Shown: in pieces, positions 5,449-54,760 of the stretch
How the letters are laid out: each line of letters begins with the position of its first letter
Numbering within the stretch: position 1 is the first letter of the stretch
From: Prevotella intermedia ATCC 25611 = DSM 20706
GTDB lineage: Bacteria; Bacteroidota; Bacteroidia; Bacteroidales; Bacteroidaceae
Assembly: GCF_001953955.1 (NCBI RefSeq)
Contig: NZ_CP019300.1
Location: 558,001 to 622,000 of the forward strand
Direction: 5' to 3'
Length of the DNA: 64,000 nt
Notes under the pieces: generated by a model
The model's input: the letters and a program-made list of their open reading frames with translations, nothing else
What the model was told of the DNA's origin: nothing
Database searches by the model: none
Program-made: the position numbers and the translations under genes

Positions 5449-5640
5449 GTGTAAATATTTTTCACAAGGATATCTTTTGTCTAACTTCCTTGTTATCAAT
5501 GTGTTGCAAAACCTATTGTTTTGCGTTCCAAAAGCGGCTGTTTTGCACGGTAAAAGCGTAGGTTTTGCGTTGCAAAACAGCCGCTTTCGCAATGCCAAAT
5601 CGAAATTACCGTTTTTCAATGAAATTATCTTTACAAAACA
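5449..5640 (-). repeat. Dispersed element A, copy 1 (four 22-bp units)
   Basis: About 190 bp, reverse oriented relative to copies 2-5. On the plus strand the core (5508-5587) has four units of AAAA-N7-TTTT spaced by N7: words CCTATTG, GCGGCTG, GCGTAGG, CAGCCGC. Flanks match the other copies: TAAATATTTTTC on the left and ATTATCTTTACAAAA on the right. It lies between the divergent glnN and M16 protease genes. Apart from it and the promoters, 5266-5852 shows no gene. Confidence 0.9.
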
Positions 5641-5852
5641 AAAGCCATTTCAGTATATTTCTTGTAGACTACAAAAGAGGAATTATTCGCCAATAAACGG
5701 CTGAAAAACACGAAGAAAGTACTAAATTAAGAGAGCCTTTTTTATATTTAACAGAGTACAAACAGAATTATAAGAAAAAAGATGAATAATTACCGAAAAA
5801 TAATTACCTTTGTACGATTAGTGAACAATAATTTTTAATCTAACTTATAAAA

Positions 5853-8669
5853 ATGAAACTGAAACATTTCCTTTTTGTTGCCTTGTTCTTTATTGCAGGA
5901 ATAGCAAACGCACAACAGTTTGGCTCAATTCCAGTAAACAAGAATGTAAGGCAGGGTAAGCTCAGCAATGGTCTGACTTATTACATCTTGCGCAACAACT
6001 GGCCTGAGAATGTAGCCAACTTCTACATTGCGCAGCGTGTTGGTTCTATTCAAGAAGAAGAACCACAACGTGGTTTGGCTCACTTCCTTGAACACATGGC
6101 GTTCAATGGTTCTGAGCACTTCCCAGACTCTACCTTGTTGGAGTTCACACGCTCGCTCGGTGTGCAGTTTGGTAGCGATTTGAACGCTTACACCTCTATC
6201 GAAGAAACTGTTTACCGCATCAGCAACGTACCGACAAAGCGTCAGACAGCACTCGATTCTTGCTTATTGGTTTTGAAAGACTGGTCTAACGGTCTTACAC
6301 TCGACGATAAGGAAATAGACAAGGAGCGTGGTGTTATCCACCAAGAATGGCAATTGAGCCAGAACGCAATGATGCGTATCTACGACCGTTCGCTGCCAAA
6401 GCTCTATCCTAACAACAAGTACGGACTTCGTTTGCCTATCGGTTTGATGAGCGTGGTAGACAATTTCAAGTACCAAGCCCTCCGCGATTACTATCACAAA
6501 TGGTATCGTCCAGACAACCAATGTATCATTGTTGTGGGCGATGTAGACGTAGACCGCACCGAAGCACAGATTAAGAAGCTATGGGCAAATGCTACCGTGC
6601 CAGCCAATGCTGCACAAGTAACAAAGCTTCCAGTGGAAGACAACGAGCAGGCTATCTATGTTTTCGATAAGGATAAGGAAATGCAGAACTCTACTATCGG
6701 CATTTTCATGAAGCACGATGTGTTCCCTGACGAAATGAAAACAAGTCAGGCATATTACATCGACAGCTATATGAAGACAATGATAGCTACGATGTTGAAC
6801 CAGCGTTTCAGCGAAATGAAGCAGAAAGCAGACTGCCCATTCACCAGTGCAGGTGGTTACGACGGCAGATTTATGCTCTCAAGCACCAAAGATGCGTTCA
6901 CATTGAACGGTAGTGCCAAGGAAGGCAAGGACATAGAAACACTCAAAGCTCTCTATCGTGAGGCACAACGAGTACGCCTGTATGGTTTCACACCTACCGA
7001 ATTTGAACGTACAAAGCAAGAATTCCTTTCACAAATCGAGTCTGAATACACCAATCGTGATAAGACAACCAGCAGCCAATATGGCGACGAATTGCGCGAC
7101 CACTTCTTGAAGAACGAGCCTATCCCAAGCAAGGAAGACGAGTACAAGATTATGAAGCAGCTCATCGAAATGCCTGCACTCAACTATCAGGTTGTAAACG
7201 AGTATGCTAAGGAGCTTATTTCCGACAAGGACAAGAACCTTGTTGTCTACATCTTCGCACAAGACAAGGCTGGAAAGGTAGACCCAACCGAAGAGAAGAT
7301 GGCACAAGCTATCAAGGAAGTACGTGCAGAAAAGATAGAACCATACGTTGATAACGTAAAGAGCGAACCTCTGTTGGACGAAACAAAACTGCCAAAGGCT
7401 GGAAAAATCGTTAAGGAAACAGAGAACAAGAAGCTCGGTTACAAAGAGCTGACATTGAGCAACGGTGCTCGTGTTATCCTCAAGAAGACTGATTTCCAAG
7501 CTAACGATGTACGTTTCTACGCTGCAGCAAAAGGCGGTAGCGGCTTATACGGCAAGGCTGACTTCGATAATCTTAAGCTGTTCAACTCTGTTATGAACAA
7601 CAGCGGACTTGGAAACTTCTCTAAACAAGAACTCACCAAGGCTCTCTACGGAAAGCAAGCAAGCGCAAGTTTGTCGCTCGGCACATACTATCAGTATGTA
7701 AGCGGCCAGTCTATACCGAAGGATATTGAAACGATGATGCAGTTGGTTTACCTCAAATTAACAAAGGTAACTAAGGACCAACAAGCATTCGACGCAATGA
7801 TGAAGCAGTACGAAGAGGCTTTGAAGCACAAAGATTTGTCTCCAGAGAGTGTCTTCGGGGACTCAGTGTCAGTTACTCTCTACAACCACGAACTTCGTTA
7901 TGCTCCTCTTTCGGTAAACAGACTCAAAGGCGTGAATTACGACCGCGTACTCCAGATATGGAAAGAGCGTTACGCTAACCCTGGACAGTTCACCTATTAC
8001 TTTGTAGGAAACTATGACGAGGCTGCTCTCCGTCCACTTATTGAGAAGTATATCGGTTGCTTGCCAAAGGGTAAGGTAGAGAACTGGAAAGAAGTTCCAG
8101 GCTTCGTTAAAGGTAAAGTGTTGAACCATTTCACCTTCAAATCAGAGACTCCAAAGGCTATGAGCGTAGAAGTTTGGCACCAACCAACAAAATACACTGT
8201 TGAGAATGCTGTACTCGTAGACGCTGCAGCGCAAGTATTGTCAATGGTTTACTTGAAGGACATTCGTGAAGACCAAGGTGCTGCTTACTCAGTAGGTGCA
8301 AGCGGTGGCTTGAATCAGACTGCCGACAAGACCTTTGCCATTATTCAGGCACAGTGCCCAATGGACCCAAACAAGGCTGAAATCGCTGTTAAGCTCCTCA
8401 ACGAAGGCATTAAGAACAACAGCGTAAAGGTCGATATGGATAAGCTTCAGAAAGTTAAGGACTTCATGCTCAAGCAAGCTGACATTAGTGCGAAGAGCAA
8501 TCGCCACTGGATAAATGTTCTCAGCGAGTATATCACATTAGGTGTAGATATTCAAAGCGACTACAAGGCTGCTGTTGAAGCCCTGACTCCAGAGAAGATT
8601 GCAGCATTCCTGAAAGGCTTGCTCGCTTCTGGCAACCACGTAGAAGTGGTGATGACACCTGCAAAATAA
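5853..8669 (+). CDS. Exported M16-family zinc metallopeptidase
   Basis: The 938-aa protein begins with a signal peptide (hydrophobic core about residues 6-16, cleavage likely after A-N-A near residue 20). The inverted zinc motif H-F-L-E-H (H-x-x-E-H) lies near residues 75-79, with the downstream E of S-I-E-E-T-V-Y-R completing the M16 site. A second, non-catalytic M16 half follows from about residue 520, so it is a two-lobed pitrilysin/PqqL-type enzyme acting in the periplasm or at the outer membrane on peptides. A -7 element TACCTTTG at 5805-5812 precedes it, and a hairpin terminator ends it. It is a single-gene unit. The substrate is unknown. Confidence 0.9.
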   Translation: MKLKHFLFVALFFIAGIANAQQFGSIPVNKNVRQGKLSNGLTYYILRNNWPENVANFYIAQRVGSIQEEEPQRGLAHFLEHMAFNGSEHFPDSTLLEFTRSLGVQFGSDLNAYTSIEETVYRISNVPTKRQTALDSCLLVLKDWSNGLTLDDKEIDKERGVIHQEWQLSQNAMMRIYDRSLPKLYPNNKYGLRLPIGLMSVVDNFKYQALRDYYHKWYRPDNQCIIVVGDVDVDRTEAQIKKLWANATVPANAAQVTKLPVEDNEQAIYVFDKDKEMQNSTIGIFMKHDVFPDEMKTSQAYYIDSYMKTMIATMLNQRFSEMKQKADCPFTSAGGYDGRFMLSSTKDAFTLNGSAKEGKDIETLKALYREAQRVRLYGFTPTEFERTKQEFLSQIESEYTNRDKTTSSQYGDELRDHFLKNEPIPSKEDEYKIMKQLIEMPALNYQVVNEYAKELISDKDKNLVVYIFAQDKAGKVDPTEEKMAQAIKEVRAEKIEPYVDNVKSEPLLDETKLPKAGKIVKETENKKLGYKELTLSNGARVILKKTDFQANDVRFYAAAKGGSGLYGKADFDNLKLFNSVMNNSGLGNFSKQELTKALYGKQASASLSLGTYYQYVSGQSIPKDIETMMQLVYLKLTKVTKDQQAFDAMMKQYEEALKHKDLSPESVFGDSVSVTLYNHELRYAPLSVNRLKGVNYDRVLQIWKERYANPGQFTYYFVGNYDEAALRPLIEKYIGCLPKGKVENWKEVPGFVKGKVLNHFTFKSETPKAMSVEVWHQPTKYTVENAVLVDAAAQVLSMVYLKDIREDQGAAYSVGASGGLNQTADKTFAIIQAQCPMDPNKAEIAVKLLNEGIKNNSVKVDMDKLQKVKDFMLKQADISAKSNRHWINVLSEYITLGVDIQSDYKAAVEALTPEKIAAFLKGLLASGNHVEVVMTPAK

Positions 8670-8730
8670 AACTTGTTGCGCAAGTCTTGCAATCGTAAGA
8701 CTTGTGCAATATACAGATTCAATCATACGA

Positions 8731-8766
8731 AAGCCCACGATTGCAATTGCAATCTTGGGCTTTTTC
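8731..8766 (+). terminator. Terminator after M16 protease gene
   Basis: The palindromic stem AAGCCCA-N-GATTGCAATTGCAATC-N-TGGGCTT is followed by a T-run. Confidence 0.85.
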
Positions 8767-8876
8767 TGTTCCAAAGAGAATGTGTCAAGGCTCAAAGACT
8801 TGCCCTTTCTCTTTCCCTTTACAGTCTTTTCGCTTATACTTTTGCACCTGCTGTCAAGGGTGTATTTTAGTTTAAC

Positions 8877-9069
8877 TTTGTAAAGATAATTCTGTTAAAA
8901 AGTGGCAATTGCGTTTTGGCATTGCGAAAGCGGCTCTTTTGCGATGCAAAACCTACGCTTTTACCTTGCAAAACAGCCGCTTTTGGAACGCAAAACAATA
9001 GGTTTTGTAATGCGTTGATGTATAATGAGTTACGTAATAGTTATACTTTTGAAAAATATTTACATCTTT
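8877..9069 (+). repeat. Dispersed element A, copy 2
   Basis: Full-length element starting TTTGTAAAGATAATT and ending AATATTTACATCTTT. Core 8924-9006 holds four 22-bp units with words GCGGCTC, CCTACGC, CAGCCGC, CAATAGG and spacers GCGATGC, ACCTTGC, GGAACGC. It lies between the convergent M16 protease and pckA genes. The stretch 9070-9293 shows no gene. Confidence 0.9.
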
Positions 9070-9293
9070 GTTGCTTTCTTTTCGTTCATAAAGTAGCGTG
9101 GGTTAGATGTAAGAATTTGAGGACAAAGAAACTTCACTGCTTTTTGATTATAAGCATATTAAAGTATAATCTATTCTTTCTATAAGTATCTTATAAATAA
9201 TATATTGGTGTAATTCTTATATTGAACTCACGTGAAAGGAACTGTGGTGCCTATGAAGAAAGATGTATAACACTCTCGATATGCCCTTTTTGC

Positions 9294-9334
9294 ATACAAA
9301 AAATCTCACCCCTGCTATGTGCAGAGGTGAGATT
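9294..9334 (-). terminator. Terminator of pckA
   Basis: AATCTCACC pairs with GGTGAGATT across an inner CTGC/GCAG stem. On the minus strand the hairpin is followed by TTTTTTG. Confidence 0.85.
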
Positions 9335-9376
9335 AAGGGTTTCGATAAAGTGTTTCAGTTACACCTTATATATGTA

Positions 9377-10990: not shown

Positions 10991-11059
10991 TTGTAAATAT
11001 TATATAAATGTTGAAATTAATTCCGTATCTTGTAACAACTTTACCTTAAAATAACACCG

Positions 11060-11090
11060 CAAAGGTAATAATTTTATGATGTAATGCAAA
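11060..11090 (-). promoter_or_regulatory. pckA promoter
   Basis: On the minus strand TTTG (complement of 11087-11090), 19 nt, then TACCTTTG (complement of 11060-11067). The leader to the ATG would be about 60-65 nt. Confidence 0.75.
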
Positions 11091-11181
11091 ATGATAGGTA
11101 TAAAAAATGCAGCAATAAAACATTTGCAAGGTTAAAGAATATAAAAAATATTATTGTTGGCAGATATTTGCTATTCAGACG

Positions 11182-11212
11182 TTGCAAATAATAAACTATT
11201 TTCTTAATTTTG
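11182..11212 (+). promoter_or_regulatory. upp promoter
   Basis: TTG at 11182-11184, a 20-nt gap, then TAATTTTG at 11205-11212. The transcript would start about 55 nt before the upp ATG. Confidence 0.7.
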
Positions 11213-11272
11213 CCACAATTTTGGGCGCATAAAAACTATCACCCCAATTTAACCATACTATAAAAAGAAAAA

Positions 11273-11932: not shown

Positions 11933-12003
11933 GTACAATTTACAAACCACGCAACAGCAATGGCTGATATTAGCCATTGCAAAGCAGGTTTTTTCTATAA
12001 GAT

Positions 12004-12060: not shown

Positions 12061-12236
12061 CCCCAATTCGTATTATTCTCGGTACTTCCAATAGACGCAT
12101 AGACAGCGTTTATAACGTTTCGTTTAGAAATCGGCGCAGTGCTCTTGTTCTCTGAAATACCGGGATAGGCAATGTTTTTGAAGGGAAATAATTGCCCCTT
12201 TCTTGCCTATAACAATTACTGAAAAACAGCTTTGGT

Positions 12237-12430
12237 TTTGTAAAGATAATTCTCTTAAAAAGTGATAACTGCGCTTTGGCATTGCGAAAGCGGCTCTTTT
12301 GCAACGCAAAACCTACGCTTTTACCGTGCAAAACCGCCGCTTTTGGAATGCAAAACAATAGGTTTTGTAACACGCTTATGTATAGATAGTTACGCAATAG
12401 TTACGCTTGTGAAAAATATTTACATTCTTG
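12237..12430 (+). repeat. Dispersed element A, copy 3
   Basis: Same flanks as copy 2. The core (12284-12366) has words GCGGCTC, CCTACGC, CCGCCGC, CAATAGG and spacers GCAACGC, ACCGTGC, GGAATGC. It sits between convergent upp and ompA-like units. The stretch 12061-12236 shows no gene. Confidence 0.9.
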
Positions 12431-14758: not shown

Positions 14759-15541
14759 TTACTGTTTTATGAGCTTTCTTACTACAAACCAAATGTGCTT
14801 TGCAAGGGTAGGGAATACGCCATAGTGCTTGCACATTACCTGAAAACGCTCGCGAAGCGATGTACGGTGGTGCAGCGTAGTTTGCCCTTCTTCCATATAG
14901 TTGGCTATTACGGCGTGCACGTTTCTAAGCAACAGTCCCTTCCGTTCGCCCTCACGCATTATCTTTATGCACCAATCCACGTCGGCAGAATAACGGTAGT
15001 GCGTGTCGAAAGGTGTTTTCCGTGCAATATCCAAGCGAGCATAAAAGGCTTGATGGCATACCAACATACCGTCGCGAAACGAACGCCAAGTAAGCTTTTC
15101 GGGCGGTTGCAGCCTGCGATGATACAGGAAATTGCCCTTTTCGTCTATGATATCAGTATTGCCATATACCACTGCAGGGCGTTCTTCGCCGTCGCCTACT
15201 TCGGCTGCCAATGCTACTTTCTCGAGTGTATCAGCCGTCGGAAAGCGGTCGCCAGCATTCAGAAACACCACATAATCGCCCTTTGCGCGCACCAAACCTT
15301 TATTCATAGCGTCGTAAAGTCCTTTGTCGGGCTCGCTGTATATACGAACGATATGTTCGTTTTCTGCACTGTCCGACATTTCTTTATAGGCTTCAGCTAT
15401 CGTTACAGTATTGTCTGTCGAGGCACCGTCCACGATAATGTGTTCCACCGTGGGGAAATCCTGCATCAGCACACTGTCTAACGTAGGCTGCAACACATCG
15501 GCTGCGTTATAGGTAATGGTGATTACTGAGAATGTTATCAT
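14759..15541 (-). CDS. Family 2 glycosyltransferase
   Basis: The 260-aa protein shows the GT-A pattern: S-V-I-T-I-T-Y-N-A at 5-13, I-I-V-D-G-A-S-T-D-N-T near residues 35-45, and the metal-binding block F-L-N-A-G-D-R-F in place of DxD near 94-101. Such enzymes transfer a sugar from a nucleotide donor to a lipid-linked or protein acceptor at the inner membrane face. Its ATG directly abuts the TAA of the upstream glycosyltransferase gene, so the two are translationally coupled and probably decorate the same glycan. The donor sugar cannot be read from sequence. Confidence 0.88.
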   Translation of the reverse strand: MITFSVITITYNAADVLQPTLDSVLMQDFPTVEHIIVDGASTDNTVTIAEAYKEMSDSAENEHIVRIYSEPDKGLYDAMNKGLVRAKGDYVVFLNAGDRFPTADTLEKVALAAEVGDGEERPAVVYGNTDIIDEKGNFLYHRRLQPPEKLTWRSFRDGMLVCHQAFYARLDIARKTPFDTHYRYSADVDWCIKIMREGERKGLLLRNVHAVIANYMEEGQTTLHHRTSLRERFQVMCKHYGVFPTLAKHIWFVVRKLIKQ

Positions 15542-16813
15542 TTATTTGTTCTTTGAATAAGCAACTGCTCTCTTGTAAATATCTATATATTGCGTAGCTA
15601 CACGCGTTTGCGAATAGCACAGTTTCACCTTTTCTACAGCATTGGCAGACAGCTTTCCGTAGTCGGCAACGTTCAACACCCAGTTGATTCCGTATGCCAA
15701 ATCAGCCGAGTCTTTCATTCTCACGACATAGCCATTGCGCTCGTGGTCTATCATTTCGGGAATACCGCCCACCTCAAAGCCCACACACGGCACGCCACAA
15801 GCCATTGCTTCCATAATGGTGTTGGGCAGATTGTCTGACAGCGATGGCAATACAAACACGTCAATGGCATTGTAAACGTCCACTATCTGCTGCGTATCGC
15901 TCACATATCCTAATGGAAACATCGGCAAGTCGAAGTTCTCTCGCAGGTCTTCAGCGTGTCCGCCGAGCACTACAACTGCCGTGTTTGCTAACGTTTCGGG
16001 GTGCTGTTCCACCATTTTTCGGCACGCATCAACCAAGTAACCCATACCTTTATTCTGGTTTGTAACCCGTTGAGATGCAAAAAGTATCAAGCGTTTATCG
16101 GTTGGCAAACCCAGTTTTCTGCGGGCTTCAGTCTTGTCTGCCTTGCAGAAAATGTTTGTATCTATCGGGTTCGGAATACATTCTATCGGGTTCTGACCTA
16201 TCAATGCGCTCCGCTTTGCTTCGCCTTGCAGCCACTTGCTGCACGTTATATATATAATATGTGAACGCCCTTCTATCGCTTCCTTGCGCTTCCACGTCCT
16301 CTGTGCAAGGCTTTTTCTTATGCCTGAGGGCAGCAGACGGCAGTCTTTGCATTGGGTTTCAAACTGCCGACAGTCTAACGTAATGTGGCAAACAGCCGTA
16401 GCGGGCCATATATCGTGCATTGTCCACACGAGCGGTTTGCCTGTTTTCAGTATCTTTTCAATACCTTTGAGCGACAGCATACCTTGGTTTATCCATGCCA
16501 AATGAACAACGTCGGCATCTTTAAATGCCTGCAACTGCGTTATGTCGGTACCTGCATTGGCAATGTCGATAGCAAACAGATTGCGCTTGGAGAAGCGTAA
16601 GTGCCAGAATATGCACCATCGTTCCCACAGCTTATTCCATTGTGTGCGCCACCCATTCTTTATTGTAAACACAGTCGTGTCGTCGCTTAACTTGTCGCGA
16701 ACAAGCATATTTGCTTCAATTCCGTTGTTGTTCAGCGCATCTTTCAAACGGTTTGCAGCCACAGCGGCACCTCCCGTCCGTTCACTTGTATTTACAATCA
16801 GTACTTTCATCAT
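15542..16813 (-). CDS. GT4-type (family 1) glycosyltransferase
   Basis: The 423-aa protein has a GT-B fold pattern: an N-terminal K-V-L-I-V-N-T-S-E-R-T-G-G-A-A glycine loop and the C-terminal donor-site block E-A-M-A-C-G-V-P-C-V-G-F-E-V-G-G near residues 345-360, with the E-x7-E spacing of GT4 retaining transferases. It likely acts in cell-surface polysaccharide assembly. It is the first gene of a two-gene unit with the GT2 gene. A TATCTTTG -7 element (complement of 16832-16839) lies about 20 nt upstream of the ATG. Confidence 0.88.
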   Translation of the reverse strand: MMKVLIVNTSERTGGAAVAANRLKDALNNNGIEANMLVRDKLSDDTTVFTIKNGWRTQWNKLWERWCIFWHLRFSKRNLFAIDIANAGTDITQLQAFKDADVVHLAWINQGMLSLKGIEKILKTGKPLVWTMHDIWPATAVCHITLDCRQFETQCKDCRLLPSGIRKSLAQRTWKRKEAIEGRSHIIYITCSKWLQGEAKRSALIGQNPIECIPNPIDTNIFCKADKTEARRKLGLPTDKRLILFASQRVTNQNKGMGYLVDACRKMVEQHPETLANTAVVVLGGHAEDLRENFDLPMFPLGYVSDTQQIVDVYNAIDVFVLPSLSDNLPNTIMEAMACGVPCVGFEVGGIPEMIDHERNGYVVRMKDSADLAYGINWVLNVADYGKLSANAVEKVKLCYSQTRVATQYIDIYKRAVAYSKNK

Positions 16814-17202: not shown

Positions 17203-17304
17203 CCCCTTTGTTTTCTTGCTGTAAACGAAGTCCCGTTTGAGAGTAGTTCAGCAAGACTTATTGCCCTTTCGTTGTTCAAGAGAAATGCAGAAGAATAGTC
17301 ATCG

Positions 17305-17496
17305 TTTTGTAAAGATTATTCTGAAGAAAAAATGATAATTTCGATTTGGCATTGCAAAAGCGTAGGTTTTGCACGCCAAAAGAGCCGCTTTTACCGTGCA
17401 AAAGCGGCTCTTTTACAATGCGAAACAATAGGTTTTGGAACGTGTTGATAATGAGATTGTTACACAATAGTGGCGTTGTGGAAAAATATTTACACT
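17305..17496 (+). repeat. Dispersed element A, copy 4 (rearranged core)
   Basis: The flanks match the other A copies. The core (17355-17436) reads words GCGTAGG, GAGCCGC, GCGGCTC, CAATAGG. Compared with copies 2, 3 and 5, the first two words are inverted as a block and the third is inverted in place, while spacer ACCGTGC is unchanged. Stretches 17203-17304 and 17497-17630 show no gene. Confidence 0.88.
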
Positions 17497-17631
17497 TTTA
17501 TAACCTTCTTTCCGCCAATAAAACATAGAGCAGACTTGTGTCTAAAGTAGACGAAAATAGAAGCTGATGTATTTGCTTTATAGGCTTGCATAAAGGCGGA
17601 AGCGCAAGACTGACACATACAGACATAATAG

Positions 17632-20671: not shown

Positions 20672-20769
20672 GGGCTTTTTATCCAAACGTTTTTGTGGTA
20701 AAATAGAAGCTTATTAGGGGAATAGTTTCCCTATTGTTGCTGAATATTGTCGTTGAAGATTAATTGCGA

Positions 20770-20963
20770 TTTTGTAAAGATAATTTTGTTGAAAAATGGT
20801 ATTTGCGCTTTGGCATTGCGAAAGCGGCTGTTTTGCGATGTAAAACCTATGCTTTTACCGTGCAAAACAGCCGCTTTTGGAATGCGAAACAATAGGTTTT
20901 GCAATGTGTTGATAAAGAGTGAGTTAGATAAAAGATATATTTGTAAAAAATATTTACATCTTT
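20770..20963 (+). repeat. Dispersed element A, copy 5
   Basis: Flanks match copies 2-4. The core (20818-20900) has words GCGGCTG, CCTATGC, CAGCCGC, CAATAGG and spacers GCGATGT, ACCGTGC, GGAATGC. It lies between the convergent helicase/small-RNA units and the chromate transporter genes. The stretch 20964-21074 shows no gene. Confidence 0.9.
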
Positions 20964-21074
20964 CTAAGCTTTTCCTCCTATAAATAAGGTGTCTAAGCAG
21001 AGTAGGGTAGTTGCGAAAACGTTTCTTTTATGTAGACGGCTTGCATTGCAAGGGTTGTTCTTCATTTCTTCCTT

Positions 21075-26307: not shown

Positions 26308-26590
26308 AACGGAATTACGGGCACTTTTCTGCGCTTCAGATTATTTATTTTCAAATAATGCCATTGTTTGCGTGCTATTGTAAGTTGCTTAATCATAGCC
26401 TATTATCCACTTGTTGGGTAGTACTGTGCAACGAAATGGCATCTTAAATGTGATAAAACGAATACTTTTGTGGAAATATAGATGCGGTTTTGCCTTGCAA
26501 AAGAGCCGTTTTTACATTCCAAAAGTGCCGCTTTTGCTCGATGAAACCTATTGTTTTGCCTTGCGAAAGCGGCACTTTTGCAAACTAGCG
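26308..26590 (+). repeat. Dispersed element B, copy 1, with a 22-bp-unit core (copy 6)
   Basis: The left part (about 26308-26450) matches the B elements at 40.8 and 54.4 kb: GAATTACGGGCACTTTTCTG, a TTATTT-CAAATAA palindrome, TTTGCGTGCTA and GTGCAACGAAA. It is followed by a core (26487-26579) of four 22-bp units with words GAGCCGT, GTGCCGC, CCTATTG, GCGGCAC. This is the most diverged B copy. The rest of 26135-26837 holds no gene except a -7 element TATATTTG at 26803-26810. Confidence 0.82.
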
Positions 26591-42962: not shown

Positions 42963-43891
42963 AACTTCTGAATTAACTGGTTGTATGTAATATGACCGCC
43001 AAGGTGAAGAAAATAATCTCCAAAGCGTTCATATTCTTTAACCCTGCGGGTGTTGTATCTGAAAGAAAACTCGTCAAAGTATCTTTGCACGTGTTTCCTG
43101 CTAAGATAGTTGTAAGTTCCTATGATAGCTCGTTTGCAGTAGTTACTCCAGAAAGCCTCAATGGTGTTTGTATAAACCCCACCATCAGCAACGTAAATAC
43201 CATGTCCGTGGTCAACAACAGCATACCTATATACTTTTTGAATGGTCTTATACCCAACCTACTCGTCCATATAGAGCATTACATTTCTTTCTACGTTTCT
43301 AAGTATCGGAGCTGTAAGCTGTTTGTAAGATATATTCCGAACGACTTTGCAAATGACTCTGCCGCCACGTTCAAGCATACCTAATACAGGAACTTTATCA
43401 ACAAAAGACCTGCCTTGGCATTTCTTAGCTTTCTTGTTCCAATGACGGTTCTTGTTCTTTCCGCCAACAAACGTCTCGTCAAATTCCACTTCACCTGTAA
43501 GTTTATCCGATATCCGTTTTGTAAAAGTCTCACGTATGCGTTGTGTCAGGAACCAGGCTGTCTTCTGTGTTATGTGTATGTCTTTAGCGAGTTGCATGGA
43601 AGAAACACCTTTCTTATTGGAAGTAAGCATATAGATAGCCATAAACCATTTTTTTAATGGTAGTTTCGAACTTTCAAAGATAGTTCCAATCCTTGCGTTG
43701 AAGTTCTTACCAGAGTTCTTACATCTGTATGAGCCGTCATTTCTCTTATATACTTTTGAGGCAGGGGAGAAAGGAGAAATGACATTTCCATTCCAGCGGA
43801 TTTGCTCAAGAAATCTAATGCAGGACTTTTCCGTTGGAAATGCTGCTTGCAAATCGAACAGGGAATTGAATTTCAATGTAAAGTTTCTCAT
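42959..43891 (-). pseudogene. IS1595-family transposase interrupted by one amber codon
   Basis: The frame from ATG 43891 runs to an in-frame TAG at 43259-43261 and then continues without further interruption to TGA 42959-42961, so readthrough would give 310 aa. The N-terminal part has the ISXO2-like layout: Y-R-C-K-N-S-G-K-N-F zinc-ribbon remnant, a helix-turn-helix, then the E-F-D-E-T-F-V-G-G-K-N-K-N-R-H block. After the stop, Y-T-N-T-I-E-A-F-W-S and Y-F-D-E-F-S-F-R-Y-N complete the DDE domain. The stop probably replaces a tryptophan codon (TGG to TAG). One point mutation has thus inactivated a recent insertion. Confidence 0.85.
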
Positions 43892-44293: not shown

Positions 44294-45290
44294 CTTTACT
44301 TATAGCAGGTAAGAAGAGTAAGCTGATGAGATTTAACAAATATTACAAAAAAAAACAGCTGTCTGAATTGTACAATTATAAAAGTAGGGGTAGTATTATA
44401 TATAATCACCTAAACAAATTGTTGTGATTAGCTTTAAAATTAGTATCTTTGCATTGGCAAATACAACACCCACAATAAGAAGAACTACTATCTGCCTGTT
44501 GTGATTAGCTTTAAAATTAGTATCTTTGCATTGGTAAATACAACTAGCAATGGTGCTATAATATCCTCCAGGCTGTTGTGATTAGCTTTAAAATTAGTAT
44601 CTTTGCATTGGTAAATACAACTTGTTGTGTAAAGGAATCGGGTTAAAACCCGTTGTGATTAGCTTTAAAATTAGTATCTTTGCATTGGTAAATACAACCC
44701 AATGATGTGAGCGTGTCTACAGCCGTGTGTTGTGATTAGCTTTAAAATTAGTATCTTTGCATTGGTAAATACAACAACGTATTCAGTACCTAAAAAACCT
44801 AATACGTTGTGATTAGCTTTAAAATTAGTATCTTTGCATTGGTAAATACAACGATATCCTAGGTGCTTATAATGATGCCAGAGGTTGTGATTAGCTTTAA
44901 AATTAGTATCTTTGCATTGGTAAATACAACCCCTCTGAAATTTTATTGAAAACTATACACGTTGTGATTAGCTTTAAAATTAGTATCTTTGCATTGGTAA
45001 ATACAACAACTTCCATTTTCATAATGTGTTACTCCTTGTTGTGATTAGCTTTAAAATTAGTATCTTTGCATTGGTAAATACAACGGGGGCTATACACGCC
45101 CCCACGTTGTTTTAGTTGTGATTAGCTTTAAAATTAGTATCTTTGCATTGGTAAATACAACACAAAGACGCTGAAAATAACCGTCTTGCCTGTTGTGATT
45201 AGCTTTAAAATTAGTATCTTTGCATTGGTAAATACAACTCGTCCACTTTATGCCCTTGTAGTTCCTGTGTTGTGATTAGCTTTAAAATTA

Positions 45291-46315
45291 ACGTGAGTTC
45301 GATATAAGAAAGTTGTTTTAAAAGTTGTAGGAGTGGAGTATTTTTTGTACCTTTATACTTGTAAATAAAAGAGTTACAAACAAATACCCACTCCTATGAC
45401 TGATACAAATTTAATAGAAATATTCTGTATATTCGACGATTTTTGCAAGTATTTTACTCCTGAGTTGAAAAAACATACGCTTCAGGTACCCGGCAAGCGG
45501 CACCGCAACCGTGCTTCCCGTATGTCGGACAGTGAAATCATGACCATTCTGGTCCTGTTCCACACCCACCGTTTCCGAGACCTAAAGTCCTTCTATCTGG
45601 GCTATATCTGCCAGCATATGCGTGGAGAGTTCCCACATCGGATTTCCTACAACCGCTTCGTCGAGCGGCAGGCACAGGTCGCACTGCACCTGTTGCTGTT
45701 TCTCCAGACATGTGCACTGGGCAAGTGTTCAAGCATATCCATCATTGATTCCACACCACTGGCTTCCTGCCACATCAAGCGTGAGCGGCAGCACAGGACC
45801 ATGAGGGGCTGGGCGGCAAAGGGAAAGTGCACCATGGGCTGGTTCTACGGATTCAAGCTACATCTTGTCATCAATGACAAGGGAGAGATTATCCAGTGGA
45901 AGCTCACGCCAGGAAACGTAGATGACAGGGAGCCATTGAAGGATAAACGCTTCACCGAGAGGTTGTTTGGAAAACTCTTTGCAGACAGGGGGTATATCAG
46001 TCAGAACCTCTTTGAGATGCTCTTTGTGGACAATATACATTTGGTGACCAAGATAAAGAAGAACATGAAGAACTCACTGATGAGCCTGTATGATAAGTTG
46101 TTGCTCAGAAAACGTTCTGTCATTGAGACAGTGAACGATGAACTGAAGAATGTATGTCAGATAGAACACACCAGACATCGCTCTTTTGATAACTTTGCAA
46201 CAAATCTGATAGCAGGACTCATTGCATACAATCTGTTGCCAAAGAAGCCAGAAATGAACATAGAGATAATTGATAAAAGCAGGATAATTGCATAGAGCTT
46301 ATATCGAACTCACGT
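45291..46315 (+). mobile_element. IS982-family insertion sequence inside a CRISPR repeat
   Basis: The element is 1025 bp with 18-bp perfect terminal inverted repeats (ACGTGAGTTCGATATAAG). It is flanked by an 8-bp direct duplication TAAAATTA (45283-45290 and 46316-46323), which is positions 15-22 of the CRISPR repeat. It carries one transposase gene. Its base composition in the coding part is clearly more GC-rich than the surrounding array, suggesting a recent arrival. Confidence 0.95.
45396..46295 (+). CDS. IS982-family transposase
   Basis: The 299-aa protein has the IS982 pattern: an N-terminal helical region, then the DDE residues in S-I-I-D-S-T-P-L near residue 115, L-F-A-D-R-G-Y-I near residue 197 and S-V-I-E-T-V-N-D-E-L-K-N near residue 250. 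R-M-S-D-S-E-I-M-T-I near 42-51 is another family landmark. The frame is intact and fills the element from about 105 bp inside the left end to 20 bp before the right end, so it may still be active. It is transcribed in the same direction as the crRNAs. Confidence 0.93.
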   Translation: MTDTNLIEIFCIFDDFCKYFTPELKKHTLQVPGKRHRNRASRMSDSEIMTILVLFHTHRFRDLKSFYLGYICQHMRGEFPHRISYNRFVERQAQVALHLLLFLQTCALGKCSSISIIDSTPLASCHIKRERQHRTMRGWAAKGKCTMGWFYGFKLHLVINDKGEIIQWKLTPGNVDDREPLKDKRFTERLFGKLFADRGYISQNLFEMLFVDNIHLVTKIKKNMKNSLMSLYDKLLLRKRSVIETVNDELKNVCQIEHTRHRSFDNFATNLIAGLIAYNLLPKKPEMNIEIIDKSRIIA

Positions 46316-48648
46316 TAAAATTAGTATCTTTGCATTGGTAAATACAACTGAATTAAAAGAACGTGGAATAATGCCAAGGTTGTGATTAGCTTTAAAATTA
46401 GTATCTTTGCATTGGTAAATACAACGTTCCTTTGAGAGTATGGCCTTGCAAAAGCGTTGTGATTAGCTTTAAAATTAGTATCTTTGCATTGGTAAATACA
46501 ACCAATTCGGCACAGAAAAATCTTCATAAAGGGTTGTGATTAGCTTTAAAATTAGTATCTTTGCATTGGTAAATACAACAGGCTTCAGAGTGTTATGTAG
46601 CTGTAACAGTTGTGATTAGCTTTAAAATTAGTATCTTTGCATTGGTAAATACAACCCCATAACTATTTTGTTTTGTCGTTTCCTGTTGTGATTAGCTTTA
46701 AAATTAGTATCTTTGCATTGGTAAATACAACTCGAAGCCTACGCTCGCCACCGCACGGTGGGTTGTGATTAGCTTTAAAATTAGTATCTTTGCATTGGTA
46801 AATACAACCCTTGCCCACTGCATCGCATTGATGCCGTCGTTGTGATTAGCTTTAAAATTAGTATCTTTGCATTGGTAAATACAACGAACTCCAGTACAAC
46901 AAACGCATCATAGCCGTTGTGATTAGCTTTAAAATTAGTATCTTTGCATTGGTAAATACAACCTCGGCAGTCATTTCAACTTTTACTTTGTCGTTGTGAT
47001 TAGCTTTAAAATTAGTATCTTTGCATTGGTAAATACAACTTGATAAGTATAAAGACATGCCAAATGTGGGTTGTGATTAGCTTTAAAATTAGTATCTTTG
47101 CATTGGTAAATACAACTGCTGCGTCCTACTTGACTTGCATTTGTAGTTGTGATTAGCTTTAAAATTAGTATCTTTGCATTGGTAAATACAACATAATCAC
47201 CAGATAAGCTTGTATCTACAGGGTTGTGATTAGCTTTAAAATTAGTATCTTTGCATTGGTAAATACAACATTTGAAGATTATAATATATCTGATGAAAAG
47301 TTGTGATTAGCTTTAAAATTAGTATCTTTGCATTGGTAAATACAACGTTCTAAATGAGAAATAAATGCGTTTAATTGTTGTGATTAGCTTTAAAATTAGT
47401 ATCTTTGCATTGGTAAATACAACTATACCATTATCACAAACAATATTTAATATGTTGTGATTAGCTTTAAAATTAGTATCTTTGCATTGGTAAATACAAC
47501 ATCATTCATTTTCTTAAGTGTATCGATGGTGTTGTGATTAGCTTTAAAATTAGTATCTTTGCATTGGTAAATACAACCAATTTGTTTTCCAACACTCCAC
47601 TATCCATGTTGTGATTAGCTTTAAAATTAGTATCTTTGCATTGGTAAATACAACGATATTAACGCAAGCGATTTCAACGATGACGTTGTGATTAGCTTTA
47701 AAATTAGTATCTTTGCATTGGTAAATACAACCCTTAGAGTCTACATAGGTACGAGCAAACCGTTGTGATTAGCTTTAAAATTAGTATCTTTGCATTGGTA
47801 AATACAACCATCAAAGTCAGCGTTTGGGAAGTCGAAACGTTGTGATTAGCTTTAAAATTAGTATCTTTGCATTGGTAAATACAACTTCAAAGGAGTGAGT
47901 TTCAAACGTTTAGCCGTTGTGATTAGCTTTAAAATTAGTATCTTTGCATTGGTAAATACAACTCTACATATATCTACTACATTAAACTATCTGTTGTGAT
48001 TAGCTTTAAAATTAGTATCTTTGCATTGGTAAATACAACAATGGATAGCTAAATACATGGCATTCATTCGTTGTGATTAGCTTTAAAATTAGTATCTTTG
48101 CATTGGTAAATACAACACTCTGAAAAGAATAGACCTTTCAGAGGCTCGTTGTGATTAGCTTTAAAATTAGTATCTTTGCATTGGTAAATACAACTTCACC
48201 ATAAATAAATTAAATATCCATATAGTTGTGATTAGCTTTAAAATTAGTATCTTTGCATTGGTAAATACAACAAGGCGGTCGAGCGACCGCTTGATGCGTG
48301 CGTTGTGATTAGCTTTAAAATTAGTATCTTTGCATTGGTAAATACAACAATAGAGAAATCACCAACCTTTAAGAAACTGTTGTGATTAGCTTTAAAATTA
48401 GTATCTTTGCATTGGTAAATACAACTTGATATCATTGGTATTTTTTTCATAATTTGTTGTGATTAGCTTTAAAATTAGTATCTTTGCATTGGTAAATACA
48501 ACATAACACTCTGAAGCCTGATGAAAAGTAGGGTTGTGATTAGCTTTAAAATTAGTATCTTTGCATTGGTAAATACAACTCAAATAGCTTAAAGCAATGA
48601 ACATCAGTGTTGTTACGAAAGCTTAGAGAGAAAGAAAAATGCAAGCAA

Positions 48649-48683: not shown

Positions 48684-48699
48684 GTTTCTAAAAGAAGGA

Positions 48700-49038: not shown

Positions 49039-49047
49039 TAATAGGCT

Positions 49048-49980: not shown

Positions 49981-49992
49981 AAGCCATCTATA

Positions 49993-52900
49993 TTAATCGT
50001 ATTCGCCTATTGCAACTATCTTACCAATGGAATTGACACGTACCTTGACAATACCTTTAAAATGCGGTAAAGATTTTAATTGTTTGTATGCAATTCCTTT
50101 AAGATTAGCGATTCTTTCTACTGTCGTTTCTAAATGGTGTCTAAAAATATAATCTCGGGCAATAGTTCCATTATAGTCAATCCTTGATATTGTTTGAACT
50201 CTATATAAGTTTGGACTTATAATGCCATAGTTACCTTCGTCCGTCAAATCCACTTCAGAAGGGATAAACCCTGTTGCTTCATTAGGGAACACGAAGTATT
50301 CGTTTTGCTTCATAGTGAATAGGAAACGCCAACCTTTATCGCGGTTGTAGTCTTTATCTATGATGGGAACACCTTGCGATTTACGTTCGGCAGCTTCAAA
50401 AAACGATACCGCATTGTCTTGCAAGTTGCCATTTTCATCGTAATAAAACGCAATATGGTGGTTGTTACTTGTTTGAACATAATTGCCTAATACAGGTTTT
50501 CCATCTTTTCCAGTAATAGGTTTGCCCGCTTGATTCTTTAGTGTATGCAGAGGAATGGCACTTAAAACGCCTTCAATGCTGACACGTTTTAAAGCTATCT
50601 TCTTTGTTTGGTCAAGATAAATAGGGTTCTCCTCCAAGTTGCTGAAAGCTTTCTTCGCATCTCCATTAAATTCTTCTAAGCGGGCTTTCAGAATATTTCT
50701 TATGCCTTTATCAATTACTTTATCGACTTTAAGGTCTGGTGTGATTGGCTTGCGGATAGGGTGGTAGTTTTCCCATTCTACAGTTTTAACCAATGCAGGG
50801 ACCACTTTTGTTCGTTCAACATTCAGATAAATCGGATTTTTATCTAATGTATTCTTTCCTGTAAACGCCTTTTTAGCGTTTCCGCTGTATTCGTTGAGAC
50901 GTTTAAGCAATGCTTCACGAATGGCAGGACTACTCACTTTGTTTATCGTAGCTTCGTCTAACGCGGCCCCAACCTTCACCATTTTTATTATAGGGCGCAT
51001 CTTTGTGCCGTAGATAGTTTCGTTGTGTAGTGGTCCACGCGGTGTAAGTTGAATCTTTTTTATTATTCCGTGCTTTGTTTTTATCTTGTTTACATTCTGC
51101 GTCATCACCTTGTTTTTCGCCTTAATTGAAACTAAAATTGCGCTAAGATGACGTTTTGCTTCTGCACGAAATTCATTGACAGGGATAGGAGCATTGAAAC
51201 GGAGCTTGCCTTCTTCGTAATGCAACTCTTTATTTTCTATTGCATAAATGCTGTCGCCTTTATTGCTTCGTGCGTTAAGGTTGTTCAGATACTGAATGAA
51301 GGAAGGCTTTGTAAAGGCTATTGCCAGTGCGTCCATTGCGTGGTGGCGGTGGTCGTTGCGCTTTGTCCAGTCTTTTATGCGTTTGATTTTCCTTCCATCT
51401 CTGTCTTCAACTATTTCGGTCAAGCCTAATTTCTCGTACTTCTCAAAGTTCAGTTCTTTCATAACGTCTACCAACTGCCAATCTTCACGTAGGCGATTGG
51501 TTATTTCTCCTGTTGTTGGTGTAACGGTTCTTACCAATTCACCCAAGATTTCGCACGCTTTTCTTGCTATGTATTGTGTATTGCGAAGGTCGCGTTCGAT
51601 AAAGCCTGAAGGAATATCAGCTTCAGTCATCAATAACTTATTGTATTTTGCTTCATTTATGACACTATCTTTTAAAAGTATATTGAGTCTCTCTTTATAT
51701 ATCTTGGCACCTTCCTCGCCATACTTTTCTTTAATGAAGTCGAAAGCTGTTTTACTGCTTTTGGCAAGATTTATATCGCGTGCTTCAAGTGTTTTGTTTG
51801 AGAAAGAATCGTCAAACAAGCGTGCTTTCGGAATGATATGCTCAATATCAAAGTCTTTAGAAAAGAGTTTGTCTTTAGGAATGTACGTATCTGAATACAG
51901 TGTCTTAAAACCATTCGGCTTAAGTTCTTCATACAGTTTATATTTTATAATGTCGTTTCTACTGATGTATGAAAGTGCAAATTCCTTTTCGAGAATTTCA
52001 CGAATACGTTGGTTTTCAGCATTACCTTGACTGATTGCGCGTGTGCGGCTCTCTCGTTCGATAGCACTGCTCTTTAGTTCGCGCGCCATTTCTATTCTTA
52101 TTTCGTCGGGCTTTCCGTATTCGTCAATGATTGCGTTGATAACATTAATCATCTGATTCAGGATTTTCTCAACGACAGGATTGCGCAAACTGTTCTTTGG
52201 CAACAGTTCCAACCTTTCCTTATACACCTTCTTGTCTAACTCTTCTTTCGTGAGCGAGTGGCGCGAATGATTATAACCTGCGTATGCACACGCTTGGCTG
52301 TAATCGTTTCCTGCTTGAAGATAAGGCAATATTTTGCGCATTGCTTTCACGCTGAGATTGCCATAATCCTCTTCAAAAACAACATCACAAAGCACAGTAG
52401 CATATTCTTCAGGGAAGCCAAAGGTTGTTTCCAACTTTCTTAGCAATGATTCGTTGCCTGTTCGAGAATTATCGCTTTCGTAAGAATACAACAAATGCCA
52501 AAGCTGATACATAGGTTGTTTTTCCAACTCGTGCTTTTCTAACGATGGGTCAAAATCGAGAATTTCGGTGCTGAAACCTAAGTTCTTGAAAATGGTGGAA
52601 ACGTAATGGCGAATCTCGGAAGCCTTTATCTTTTTGAAATCGCATTCTTCGTGTCCCGTCAGCGTTATGATACGATTGTAGCAATCGAAGAGAATGGCTT
52701 GCGTGCGGTTCCCTTCCAATTCCTTATAGTTCAAGTCCCATTGCTTGCCTTTCTTGTTCAGTATTTTCAGAGTCTCAGTCTTGCTTAGTTTCGCTTTAAT
52801 GCTTAGCTCTTCATACAGTAAGTTTCTTTCGTCTTCATCGAGCGGACGCTTTTCGTTCGTATCGTTATCAATGAGCAGAACATTGTTTAAGTTTTGCCAA

Positions 52901-54135
52901 ATTCTAAATTCTTGGAATACAGGCGATGACTTTGGGGCAACTTTCGGACCTATTGTTATTTCCTTTTCCTTGCCATCTATTGTCGCTTTTACTTTGCGTT
53001 GTTCAAGTTCGCAAACAGAAATAAGACTTTTCTTACTCTTCAATGGGCGTTGATAAAAAATGATAATATCTCTTATTTCCTGCTTCAGCTCTGGCGCTAG
53101 CTGCTTGTGGAAAGCGGCTTGCGTTTCCCAAATCTTCTCAAATTCGTCTAAATAGTCTTGGCGATAGAAAGGTTTGTTCTTTATGCTGATATGCGGATTT
53201 TCTTCTAACGAAGCCCAGAGATATTGTCCAACCGTCTGTTTGTTGAAATAAAGTTCCTTGCTTCTGTCGCTGATAGCACCGAGCAGTCCGCTTGTATTGG
53301 CTATTTGTCCTTTTAAATCGCTGATAACAAAGGCTAAAACCTCTTTATCAACTTGTTGCTTTAACGCCTCAACCCTCCATTTCAAAGGCTGCAATTTTCT
53401 GTCCAAACCTTTTAAGTCGGCAGAATAAATGCCATATTTGGCAAGGAAAATCTTGCTTGTATTGGTTTTTGTTTTGCCTTCTAACTGTTGTTTAAATTCG
53501 TCTGTGAGTATTTCGGGATAATACCTTTTCTGCTCGTCCCATATTCTTTCCAACTCTGCATTTAGGTCGGAACGATAGTAACCTTGCGTAAACTTCTTGC
53601 CTTTATTAAGCAACTGAAGCGAATATTCTGCAGGAGTAAGGTGCTCTTCGTAGAGTTTTTTGGCGATGGTCATACCATCGAAAAGCTGTCCGTCTTCTTT
53701 GTTGTTTGCTTTTCGGTTACTTTTATAGCCACGTTTTTTGTTCAGCATAAACAAGACGCGGGCAAATTCGTGCAACGATATTTCTTCTTCGGCTGCTTTT
53801 GCGCGAAGCTTATAAGTTTCAAAGGTAGAGGCTTTGCCTTCCTCGTACATTGCTTCGGTGCCTAACCAACCTTGTTTTTGCAGACAGTCGTGAAGGTTTT
53901 GCCTGCGAAGTTTATAGCGTTGAAGGTTTATTCTTGCGCCATGACGCAACTGCCTGTCAGCATTGGTCGTTATGGCTTTTCCTTTTTCAAAGTTGCTTTT
54001 TTCGTCTACGGTTAGTGGATTTACTCTTACACCCAAACGAACAATAGAAGATGCTTCGTTATTGTTCTCGGCTTCGTTTACCAAAGCCCAACCTATACTC
54101 GTGGTTCCTAAATCTAATCCTAATATTCTTTTCAT
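49993..54135 (-). CDS. cas9: Cas9 endonuclease, type II-C, 1380 aa
   Basis: RNA-guided nuclease that cuts both strands of target DNA with HNH and split RuvC domains. RuvC-I is G-L-D-L-G-T-T-S-I-G-W-A with the catalytic aspartate at residue 8. An arginine-rich bridge helix follows (R-Q-L-R-H-G-A-R-I-N-L-Q-R-Y-K near 61-75). RuvC-II is I-R-I-E-M-A-R-E near residues 676-683, HNH is D-I-E-H-I-I-P-K near 760, and RuvC-III is D-H-R-H-H-A-M-D-A near 927-935. All catalytic residues are intact. At 1380 aa it is among the long II-C forms usual for Bacteroidota. No csn2 or cas4 is nearby, which supports II-C. It is divergent from tracrRNA. Confidence 0.98.
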   Translation of the reverse strand: MKRILGLDLGTTSIGWALVNEAENNNEASSIVRLGVRVNPLTVDEKSNFEKGKAITTNADRQLRHGARINLQRYKLRRQNLHDCLQKQGWLGTEAMYEEGKASTFETYKLRAKAAEEEISLHEFARVLFMLNKKRGYKSNRKANNKEDGQLFDGMTIAKKLYEEHLTPAEYSLQLLNKGKKFTQGYYRSDLNAELERIWDEQKRYYPEILTDEFKQQLEGKTKTNTSKIFLAKYGIYSADLKGLDRKLQPLKWRVEALKQQVDKEVLAFVISDLKGQIANTSGLLGAISDRSKELYFNKQTVGQYLWASLEENPHISIKNKPFYRQDYLDEFEKIWETQAAFHKQLAPELKQEIRDIIIFYQRPLKSKKSLISVCELEQRKVKATIDGKEKEITIGPKVAPKSSPVFQEFRIWQNLNNVLLIDNDTNEKRPLDEDERNLLYEELSIKAKLSKTETLKILNKKGKQWDLNYKELEGNRTQAILFDCYNRIITLTGHEECDFKKIKASEIRHYVSTIFKNLGFSTEILDFDPSLEKHELEKQPMYQLWHLLYSYESDNSRTGNESLLRKLETTFGFPEEYATVLCDVVFEEDYGNLSVKAMRKILPYLQAGNDYSQACAYAGYNHSRHSLTKEELDKKVYKERLELLPKNSLRNPVVEKILNQMINVINAIIDEYGKPDEIRIEMARELKSSAIERESRTRAISQGNAENQRIREILEKEFALSYISRNDIIKYKLYEELKPNGFKTLYSDTYIPKDKLFSKDFDIEHIIPKARLFDDSFSNKTLEARDINLAKSSKTAFDFIKEKYGEEGAKIYKERLNILLKDSVINEAKYNKLLMTEADIPSGFIERDLRNTQYIARKACEILGELVRTVTPTTGEITNRLREDWQLVDVMKELNFEKYEKLGLTEIVEDRDGRKIKRIKDWTKRNDHRHHAMDALAIAFTKPSFIQYLNNLNARSNKGDSIYAIENKELHYEEGKLRFNAPIPVNEFRAEAKRHLSAILVSIKAKNKVMTQNVNKIKTKHGIIKKIQLTPRGPLHNETIYGTKMRPIIKMVKVGAALDEATINKVSSPAIREALLKRLNEYSGNAKKAFTGKNTLDKNPIYLNVERTKVVPALVKTVEWENYHPIRKPITPDLKVDKVIDKGIRNILKARLEEFNGDAKKAFSNLEENPIYLDQTKKIALKRVSIEGVLSAIPLHTLKNQAGKPITGKDGKPVLGNYVQTSNNHHIAFYYDENGNLQDNAVSFFEAAERKSQGVPIIDKDYNRDKGWRFLFTMKQNEYFVFPNEATGFIPSEVDLTDEGNYGIISPNLYRVQTISRIDYNGTIARDYIFRHHLETTVERIANLKGIAYKQLKSLPHFKGIVKVRVNSIGKIVAIGEYD

Positions 54136-54212
54136 ATTAATAAGGTTATTTTGATATTTTGTGTAAAGTTACAAAAAATATTTTAATTCGGAGAAAATTA
54201 ATTTGAAAAAAC

Positions 54213-54243
54213 TTGCACGTTATTTAATAAATCTTTATCTTTG
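54213..54243 (+). promoter_or_regulatory. tracrRNA promoter
   Basis: TTG at 54213-54215, a 20-nt gap and TATCTTTG at 54236-54243. The same ATCTTTGCATTACTAATTTT context resembles the promoter part inside the CRISPR repeat. Confidence 0.8.
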
Positions 54244-54249
54244 CATTAC

Positions 54250-54329
54250 TAATTTTAAAGTATTCACAATAAGGATTTTTCCGTTGTGAGAACATTAGGT
54301 TGCCTCGTCCTTATAACGGGGCTTTTTTT
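54250..54329 (+). ncRNA. tracrRNA
   Basis: The anti-repeat TACTAATTTTAAAG (54247-54260) is exactly complementary to the CRISPR repeat, and TCACAA (54263-54268) pairs with the repeat start TTGTGA after a short internal bulge. The transcript should begin around 54247-54251, directly at the anti-repeat. It ends with the stem GCCTCGT/ACGGGGC (54302-54322) and TTTTTTT. The size is about 80 nt, read divergently from cas9. The anti-repeat proves that crRNAs are read from the plus strand. Confidence 0.92.
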
Positions 54330-54420
54330 ATGTCTGCATTTTAGTTTTCGTGAGCAATGTAGTAGGTTCAATAGATTTTTTGTGGCTGCAGAAGGGTAAT
54401 TCTTTATTTTTGAACTTTTG

Positions 54421-54760
54421 TTAAAACGACTCCGAAATCGTTAAAATCTAAAGTCTCAACTTCGGAATTACGGGCACTTTTCTGCACTTCAAATTATTTA
54501 TTTGCAAATAACGCCATTATTTGCGTGCTACCATAAGTGCTTCGTTCATAGCTTCTTGCAAGCTTATAGGGTAGTGTTGTGCAATGAAACCATACCTTTT
54601 ATGTTGTAAAACGAACACTTTTATTCGCATATAGGCTATATTTTGCGCTCTATCATCATCTTTTTGCTCTGCAAAAGTGCCGTTTTTGCAATCCAAAAGT
54701 GCCGCTTTTGCACGGTAAAACCTATTGTTTTGCATTGCAAAAGCGGCTCTTTTACTTTTC
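54421..54760 (+). repeat. Dispersed element B, copy 3, with a 22-bp-unit core (copy 7)
   Basis: The left part (54421-54610) is almost identical to the B copy at 40.8 kb. It is followed by a core (54661-54755) of four perfect 22-bp units with words GTGCCGT, GTGCCGC, CCTATTG, GCGGCTC and spacers GCAATCC, GCACGGT, GCATTGC. It lies between tracrRNA and the orphan CRISPR-like repeat. No gene is seen in 54330-54986. Confidence 0.9.

Follow-up and report, generated by a model that had tools for sequence, protein, structure and literature searches.

The closest described things to the subject of this article, a dispersed intergenic array of A- and T-runs in Prevotella intermedia ATCC 25611 = DSM 20706, are BrickBuilt (PMC4596501) and A-tract clusters (PMC3940949). 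The DNA we analyzed is a stretch of 64,000 nucleotides (contig NZ_CP019300.1, positions 558,001 to 622,000), which we call the window, and it holds seven copies of the array. BrickBuilt is a minisatellite–MITE (miniature inverted-repeat transposable element) of Porphyromonas gingivalis with a 23-nucleotide unit (consensus AGAYCATARTATCCTCTCRTRTG), 1 to 22.8 units per copy and 19 copies; according to its authors, it matches only P. gingivalis and P. gulae (PMC4596501). It resembles our element in being intergenic and dispersed, in setting tandem short units between leader and tail flanks, in having, as some copies of ours do, ends like those of resident insertion sequences (ISs), and in its predicted stem-loops (PMC4596501). 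The Prevotella arrays differ in their 22-bp frame of A/T tracts, their swapping words, their four units and their 245 matches in one genome; compared by eye, their unit, with its A4 and T4 runs, does not follow the BrickBuilt consensus. A-tract clusters, or an ~11-bp periodicity of A-tracts, are a statistical feature of genomes (PMC3940949, which cites Tolstorukov 2005). The likeness lies in helix-phased A-tracts, which that report ties to intrinsic curvature and nucleoid compaction (PMC3940949). The Prevotella arrays, in contrast, are discrete repeated cassettes with exact phase.

Two further kinds of repeat deserve comparison. The REP and BIME sequences of enterobacteria (repetitive extragenic palindromes and bacterial interspersed mosaic elements) are intergenic, exceed 100 copies, lie in both orientations, have species-specific sequences and hairpin potential, and favor the space between convergent genes. 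The Prevotella arrays have these traits of copy number, orientation, species-specific sequence, hairpin potential and placement in common with them, but keep a strict 22-bp A/T-tract frame in a genome that has no Y1 tyrosine transposase (PF01797, RAYT). That family was present in 4 of the 10 genomes searched and had no match in the window's own genome (G000) or in the genomes we label G413, G551, G291, G408 and G556; mobilization of the REP/RAYT kind was therefore rejected for G000. MITEs are short, non-coding and present in many copies, some with IS-like inverted ends. All this is true of the Prevotella element as well, the difference being that most of its copies are without outer ends and no target duplications were seen.

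Seven arrays in the window

A scan of the window for four AAAA-N7-TTTT units at 22-bp steps (maximum score 32) gave 30 to 32 at or beside every one of the seven intergenic loci listed in a preliminary description of this DNA. The best scores elsewhere were 25, from a shifted neighbor of copy 7, and then 23, and 20 first-order Markov shuffles of the window reached maxima of only 21 to 23. The seven loci therefore stand, with coordinates that had been correct to a few bases, apart from copy 6, whose four units occupy 26499-26579 and do not start at 26487.

5444..5640, plus strand: copy 1, whole ~197-bp element (array 5508-5587)
8874..9070, minus strand: copy 2, core element (array 8926-9006)
12234..12430, minus strand: copy 3, core element (array 12286-12366; site also occupied in G413)
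17304..17500, minus strand: copy 4, core element (array 17356-17436; G413 also has a copy here, with one word replaced)
20768..20964, minus strand: copy 5, core element (array 20820-20900)
26499..26579, plus strand: copy 6, second-subfamily array (words GTGCCGC/GCGGCAC)
54673..54755, plus strand: copy 7, second-subfamily array

Each unit holds a 7-bp word and a 7-bp spacer between its tracts. GAAA instead of AAAA opens some end units, and many copies are adjoined by a degenerate fifth unit in frame. The small set of words noted earlier agrees with the arrays we inspected. Writing A for CCTATTG, B for GCGGCTS and C for GCGTAGG, with lower case for the reverse complement, the orders among 69 distinct G000 arrays with a terminal CCTATTG were A-B-C-b (42), A-C-B-b (11), A-C-B-c (9) and others (7); the terminal CCTATTG is missing in 4 further arrays. 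The interleaved, pseudoknot-like order that had been proposed is one of several present. As a general rule it is rejected, given the variety of orders and the nested hairpins seen in RNA folding. Rfam gave no match at gathering threshold in the window, and we found no published description of a phased 22-bp array in the open-licence literature (most subscription literature lay outside that search), which agrees with the earlier remark that no described Prevotella element was known to have this structure.

The array is the center of a longer repeat. Alignment of copies extends the homology over ~200 bp, so the repeated unit reaches beyond the array, a correction to the preliminary description. 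In the CCTATTG-first reading, homology runs from TGTAAATATTTTTCA, ~68 bp before the first word, to TTATCTTTACA, ~128 bp after it, and the core edges TGTAAATATTTTT and AATTATCTTTACA are imperfect inverted repeats. Some copies are lengthened to ~455 bp, with inverted ends that resemble those of an IS in the window; in copy 2, the long flank extends to 9233, and inverted ends lie near both 9095 and 9233. Copies 6 and 7 belong to a second subfamily, set apart by flanks unlike those of copies 1–5. Next to arrays of L246, L236, L102, L097 and G000, a candidate flank motif, GTAAC..CTGA..ATCAACG.GTTGCA, could be picked out by eye; it stays a candidate after a TTGATTATCA scan with one control stretch per locus.

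Copy number, unit number and period

The host genome, G000, is 2.67 Mb in two contigs. A similarity search yielded 294 first-look candidates in it; the 40 that were scored all had at least 85% identity. The strict pattern has 245 four-unit and 503 three-unit matches in it, and a reversed four-unit control pattern has 2; the difference, 503 minus 245, gives 258 arrays with at least three strict units. Our complete survey covered 464 kb of G000 (the window and 20 evenly spaced 20-kb pieces). Among the 45 arrays found there, the longest strict run was four units in 42, three in 2, two in 1 and five in none, so that exactly four units per copy is indeed the rule in this genome.

The step, too, is regular. 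Across the 464 kb, successive AAA-N7-TTT motifs lie 22 bp apart in 134 cases, 21 bp in 1 and 23 bp in 3; a secondary peak at 28 bp comprises 20 cases, and the eight inspected all sit in the element's own flank. When the period of a three-unit pattern is set to 21 bp, almost nothing matches: 5 places in 12 genomes (three in G556, one each in G408 and G303, none in the other nine), compared with three-unit 22-bp matches numbering 503 in G000, 491 in G413, 352 in G556, 210 in G583 and 116 in G291. A period of two helical turns was the proposal of the preliminary description that gained most from our analysis: the step is 22 and not 21 bp, and the tracts are far more conserved than the intervening text.

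What changes between orthologous arrays

The second of these points comes from the genome G413, in which counterparts were located via neighboring sequence and ten pairs compared position by position; an eleventh (L020/L225), in which the element is inverted, was excluded. Changes affect 6 of 320 positions in A/T runs, 31 of 210 in spacers and 66 of 280 in words (Fisher test of tract versus spacer changes, 1.8e-8), and the first six pairs alone gave 0/192, 18/126 and 35/168, respectively. Word changes are bimodal: 25 of the 40 words have none or one, a single word has two, and 14 have three to five. Between L026 and L218, all four differences in 81 bp fall within one word. Both partner words are replaced in four of the ten pairs (L013, L016, L259:12825 and L259:18117), and G413 often shows CCGTAGG-type words at positions where G000 has GCGGCTS. 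The apparent gaps within arrays (six openings in the ten pairs) are replaced words forced into gaps; an ungapped listing keeps the tracts in register. In this comparison of orthologous intergenic regions, of the kind suggested in the preliminary description, sites are kept between the relatives, tracts are conserved and whole words are swapped; copy 2 is absent from G413. A set of 30 copies found by similarity, the ones closest to copy 2, shows the same contrast: the minor-allele fraction averages 0.002 for tracts, 0.033 for words, 0.07 for spacers and 0.17-0.39 for flanks.

A tentative reading in terms of DNA shape

An exact A/T rhythm with changing text suggests that the shape of the DNA, not its text, is what is preserved. 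We propose, tentatively and with a little less than even confidence, that the arrays are DNA-architecture cassettes in which selection acts on helically phased A/T tracts. With A4 and T4 runs alternating every 11 bp in exact 22-bp units, the eight tracts of an array would nearly share a face of the helix, which predicts strong bending over a segment of ~80 bp. Tracts at the helical period are the mark of phased A-tracts, and here the 11-bp spacing, on a 10.5-bp helix, yields a phasing sum of about 6.1 out of 8. Shuffling the bases lowers the sum to 0.9, and spacing these tracts at random lowers it to 3.2. A nucleoid protein, for which we propose the HU/IHF-like class, would dock on the array and recognize either its minor groove or its bend. 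Selection would then keep the phased tracts and leave the 7-bp words and spacers freer, the words being replaced as blocks, probably as the many copies recombine or through template switching between them. There may be consequences for supercoiling, insulation or the folding of the nucleoid. In favor of this reading we count the low rate of tract change in the ten orthologous pairs and the 30 similar copies, the 22-bp step and the scarcity of a 21-bp one, the occurrence of the frame with other words in other genomes, the phasing sum, and an excess of arrays between convergent genes.

Pairing and placement

The words also pair. The seven window arrays, in eight foldings, were more stable than dinucleotide shuffles (z -2.1 to -7.1), and in most copies, read CCTATTG-first, RNA folding favors a nested hairpin with units 2 and 4 paired and unit 3 at the tip; in copy 4, the hairpin is formed by the two middle units. 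Pairing of words within arrays exceeds that in between-array shuffles in G299 (25 arrays) and G291 (38 arrays), with 0 of 2000 shuffles reaching the observed value in each. Exact reverse-complement word pairs number 16 against 7.1 expected in G299 (4/2000) and 10 against 5.5 in G291 (102/2000). Identical words are not enriched within arrays of these genomes (8 against 7.8 in G299, 1 against 5.4 in G291), nor are self-palindromic units above shuffle in either. Across 95 related arrays of the element's own family, pairing between units 2 and 4 exceeds that in shuffles (0/2000). Its main class of 50 arrays (42 from G000, 5 from G413 and 3 from viral records) shows no sign of compensatory point changes: 6.26 pairs against 6.30, with 1624 of 2000 shuffles at least as high. 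The gain in folding energy over word shuffles is small, 6/60 and 2/60 shuffles being equally good. Pairing between units is present, and its source may be template switching as well as selection.

Placement was scored for 41 of the 45 surveyed arrays from simple open reading frame (ORF) calls, four unclassifiable arrays being excluded. Twenty lie between convergent genes, 15 between tandem and 6 between divergent genes, where intergenic length predicts 11.9, 18.3 and 10.8. The convergent excess has P=0.006 (0.002 with a longer ORF limit); the divergent deficit among the same arrays is not significant (P 0.06 and 0.19). One array of three strict units (L265:8920) sits inside a predicted open frame of 323 codons.

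Insertion sequence, mobility and rearrangements

One further feature of the window bears on how the element might spread.

45291..46314, plus strand: IS with a DDE_Tnp_1_3 transposase (ORF 45396-46295) and inverted ends ACGTGAGTTCGATATAAG

These ends resemble the outer ends of the element's long form. We take the IS to be of the IS982 type. It sits within a CRISPR array (41 matches to a 47-nucleotide repeat at a step of ~77 bp, 44421-48579), apparently with an 8-bp target duplication, TAAAATTA; a Cas9 gene lies nearby at 49993-54135. Another ORF, 43259-43891, has at its end a match to the opening part of a transposase domain of the IS1595 type (ISXO2-like) and is probably incomplete.

Among the 30 aligned copies, IS-like ends occur at -231 in 6, at -93 in 9 and at +223 in 8. 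At least one of these ends is present in 13 copies and none in 17; both outer ends are found in 3, and in these no target duplication was seen by eye. At the site of copy 2, G413 has 36 bases against 452 and retains a fragment resembling the element's flank. A clean MITE insertion is not supported, given that fragment and the absence of target duplications. Elsewhere in G000, four pairs of IS-like inverted ends lie ~237 bp apart (C1:905952-906188, C1:1250575-1250811, C1:1510017-1510252 and C2:671402-671638), and probably represent another short element, distinct from the arrays, whose ends resemble those of the window IS.

Some copies also coincide with rearrangement points between G000 and G413. 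One G413 element (L216) joins flanks that lie beside two G000 copies 43 kb apart (L054 and L021), and synteny with G413 contig C90 breaks at the edge of copy L259:12825 (L259:12953-12986), near the G413 contig end. On G413 contig C59 (L209), a second-subfamily copy like copy 7 lies near 15465-15543 in ~1.2 kb absent from G000, followed by two sequences that resemble degenerate copies of the window's CRISPR repeat.

The frame in other genomes

Across the family, 39 of 399 genomes, belonging to 9 of the 30 genera, have at least one four-unit match. Single matches carry little weight because some come from ordinary minisatellites whose units are identical (L062, L077 and L078) and because the reversed control matches in a few genomes that have no real match (31 in G311, 13 in G093, for example). 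Within the genus, four-unit matches number 227 in G413, 224 in G556, 87 in G450, 63 in G583, 38 in G291, 36 in G408, 29 in G299 and 15 in G108. A 201-bp query of the element itself matched 29 of 200 genus genomes at E ≤0.01. Among the candidates scored, no more than four in each genome, G413 alone besides G000 gave full-length matches, and G551 gave partial ones of up to 154 bases.

Arrays of other genomes share the frame, mostly with different words: G299 has GGT-N-ACC types, G291 has GGCCACC and GACGGCC types, and G408 has GGGCTGC and GCTATGC. GCTATGC/GCATAGC recurs in two genera (G005; G352 and G384). The same frame with different words implies that the frame itself appears to be kept. Unit number is another matter. 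Subtracting four-unit from three-unit counts, as for G000, gives arrays with at least three strict units numbering 264 in G413, 147 in G583, 128 in G556, 78 in G291 and 47 in each of G299 and G408. In G291, 40 of the 78 hold just three strict units, while in G556 the four-unit matches outnumber the arrays, so many must be longer. These counts rule out a universal four-unit rule. A count of exactly four characterizes G000 and, more loosely, G413; in the other genomes it fails.

Prevotella nigrescens FDAARGOS_1486 (NZ_CP082843.1, listed as a plasmid, 567,798 bp) has 10 element-like places. In 40 kb of it, four arrays lie between annotated genes, mostly with other words, and two of the four have weaker units. 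No array was found in 21.6 kb around the PEPCK gene of P. pallens, a species whose PEPCK shares 92% identity with that of the window's genome. As to carriage by phages, there are matches in nineteen IMG/VR stretches; several are no more than plain repeats, and G000-like words occur in six (L276, L278, L279, L280, L285 and L289). L280 and L285, both from IMG/VR 2876634834, carry arrays at the sites of copy 5 (record 2876634834_000003, L280) and of the L262:5011 copy, in sequence 96-97% identical; annotated phages gave no array match.

Weighing the alternatives

Several points count against bent-DNA cassettes. The phasing sum is a simple phasing model and not a bend angle. Ortholog frames were placed by best fit to A/T runs in a small sample, two of the pairs (L004/L222 and L259:12825) were matched on one flank only, and the P value for convergent bias depends on approximate ORF calls. 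No particular protein was named as the reader. Since A-runs can pair with T-runs in a hairpin, conserved tracts taken by themselves would also be compatible with an RNA or cruciform function. The strongest rival, and a serious one, is a hairpin element of transcript 3' ends, akin to REP/BIME, whose paired units would stabilize or terminate messages from both sides. We consider it unlikely on balance, though it draws on the foldings that beat dinucleotide shuffles, the pairing of words within G299 and G291 arrays where identical words are not enriched, the four orthologous pairs with both partners replaced, the pairing of units 2 and 4 across 95 arrays, and the convergent bias. Against these stand the main class without compensatory point changes, the small energy gain over word shuffles and a pairing topology that varies. 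Template switching in quasi-palindromes could also account for the reverse-complement words, and the exactness of the 22-bp step is left unexplained by a hairpin.

That step would suit an array of operator-like sites for a dimeric, word-reading DNA-binding protein whose specificity drifts between lineages, since spacing by two turns places sites on one face. The small word set of each genome, used in both orientations and differing between genomes, fits, as do the CCGTAGG-type words of G413 where G000 has GCGGCTS and the sharing of GCTATGC/GCATAGC by two genera. Yet words are the least conserved part of orthologous arrays, units in G299 and G291 are no more self-palindromic than shuffles, and no such protein was named; we regard this as the least probable of the explanations. 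Little better, and still quite improbable in our view, is a selfish MITE, with the ~455-bp form spread by the transposase of the window IS and the array as its cargo or transposase-binding region. The IS-like ends of some copies, the IS itself and the four ~237-bp end pairs argue for it. Most of the 30 copies (17) lack all three ends, however, the three with both outer ends show no target duplication, the flank-like fragment in G413 means that copy 2 has no clean empty site, and the outer flanks are far less conserved than the tracts. A MITE origin would in any case bear on the spread of the element, not its function.

What the arrays may mean

We return, then, to DNA shape. Extending the bent-DNA reading from one genome to the family is a possibility we put forward with more reserve: the arrays may be family-wide DNA-shape cassettes, with an exact 22-bp frame of phased tracts maintained by selection and exchangeable, lineage-specific 7-bp words, that serve as dispersed bending or docking stations organizing the chromosome. 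The role of helically phased A-tracts in bacteria has been debated mostly from weak genome-wide periodicity. The arrays are natural, discrete modules that combine a fixed phase with a freer text, and their vocabularies differ between related genomes, and spacing and words are therefore separable for direct test.

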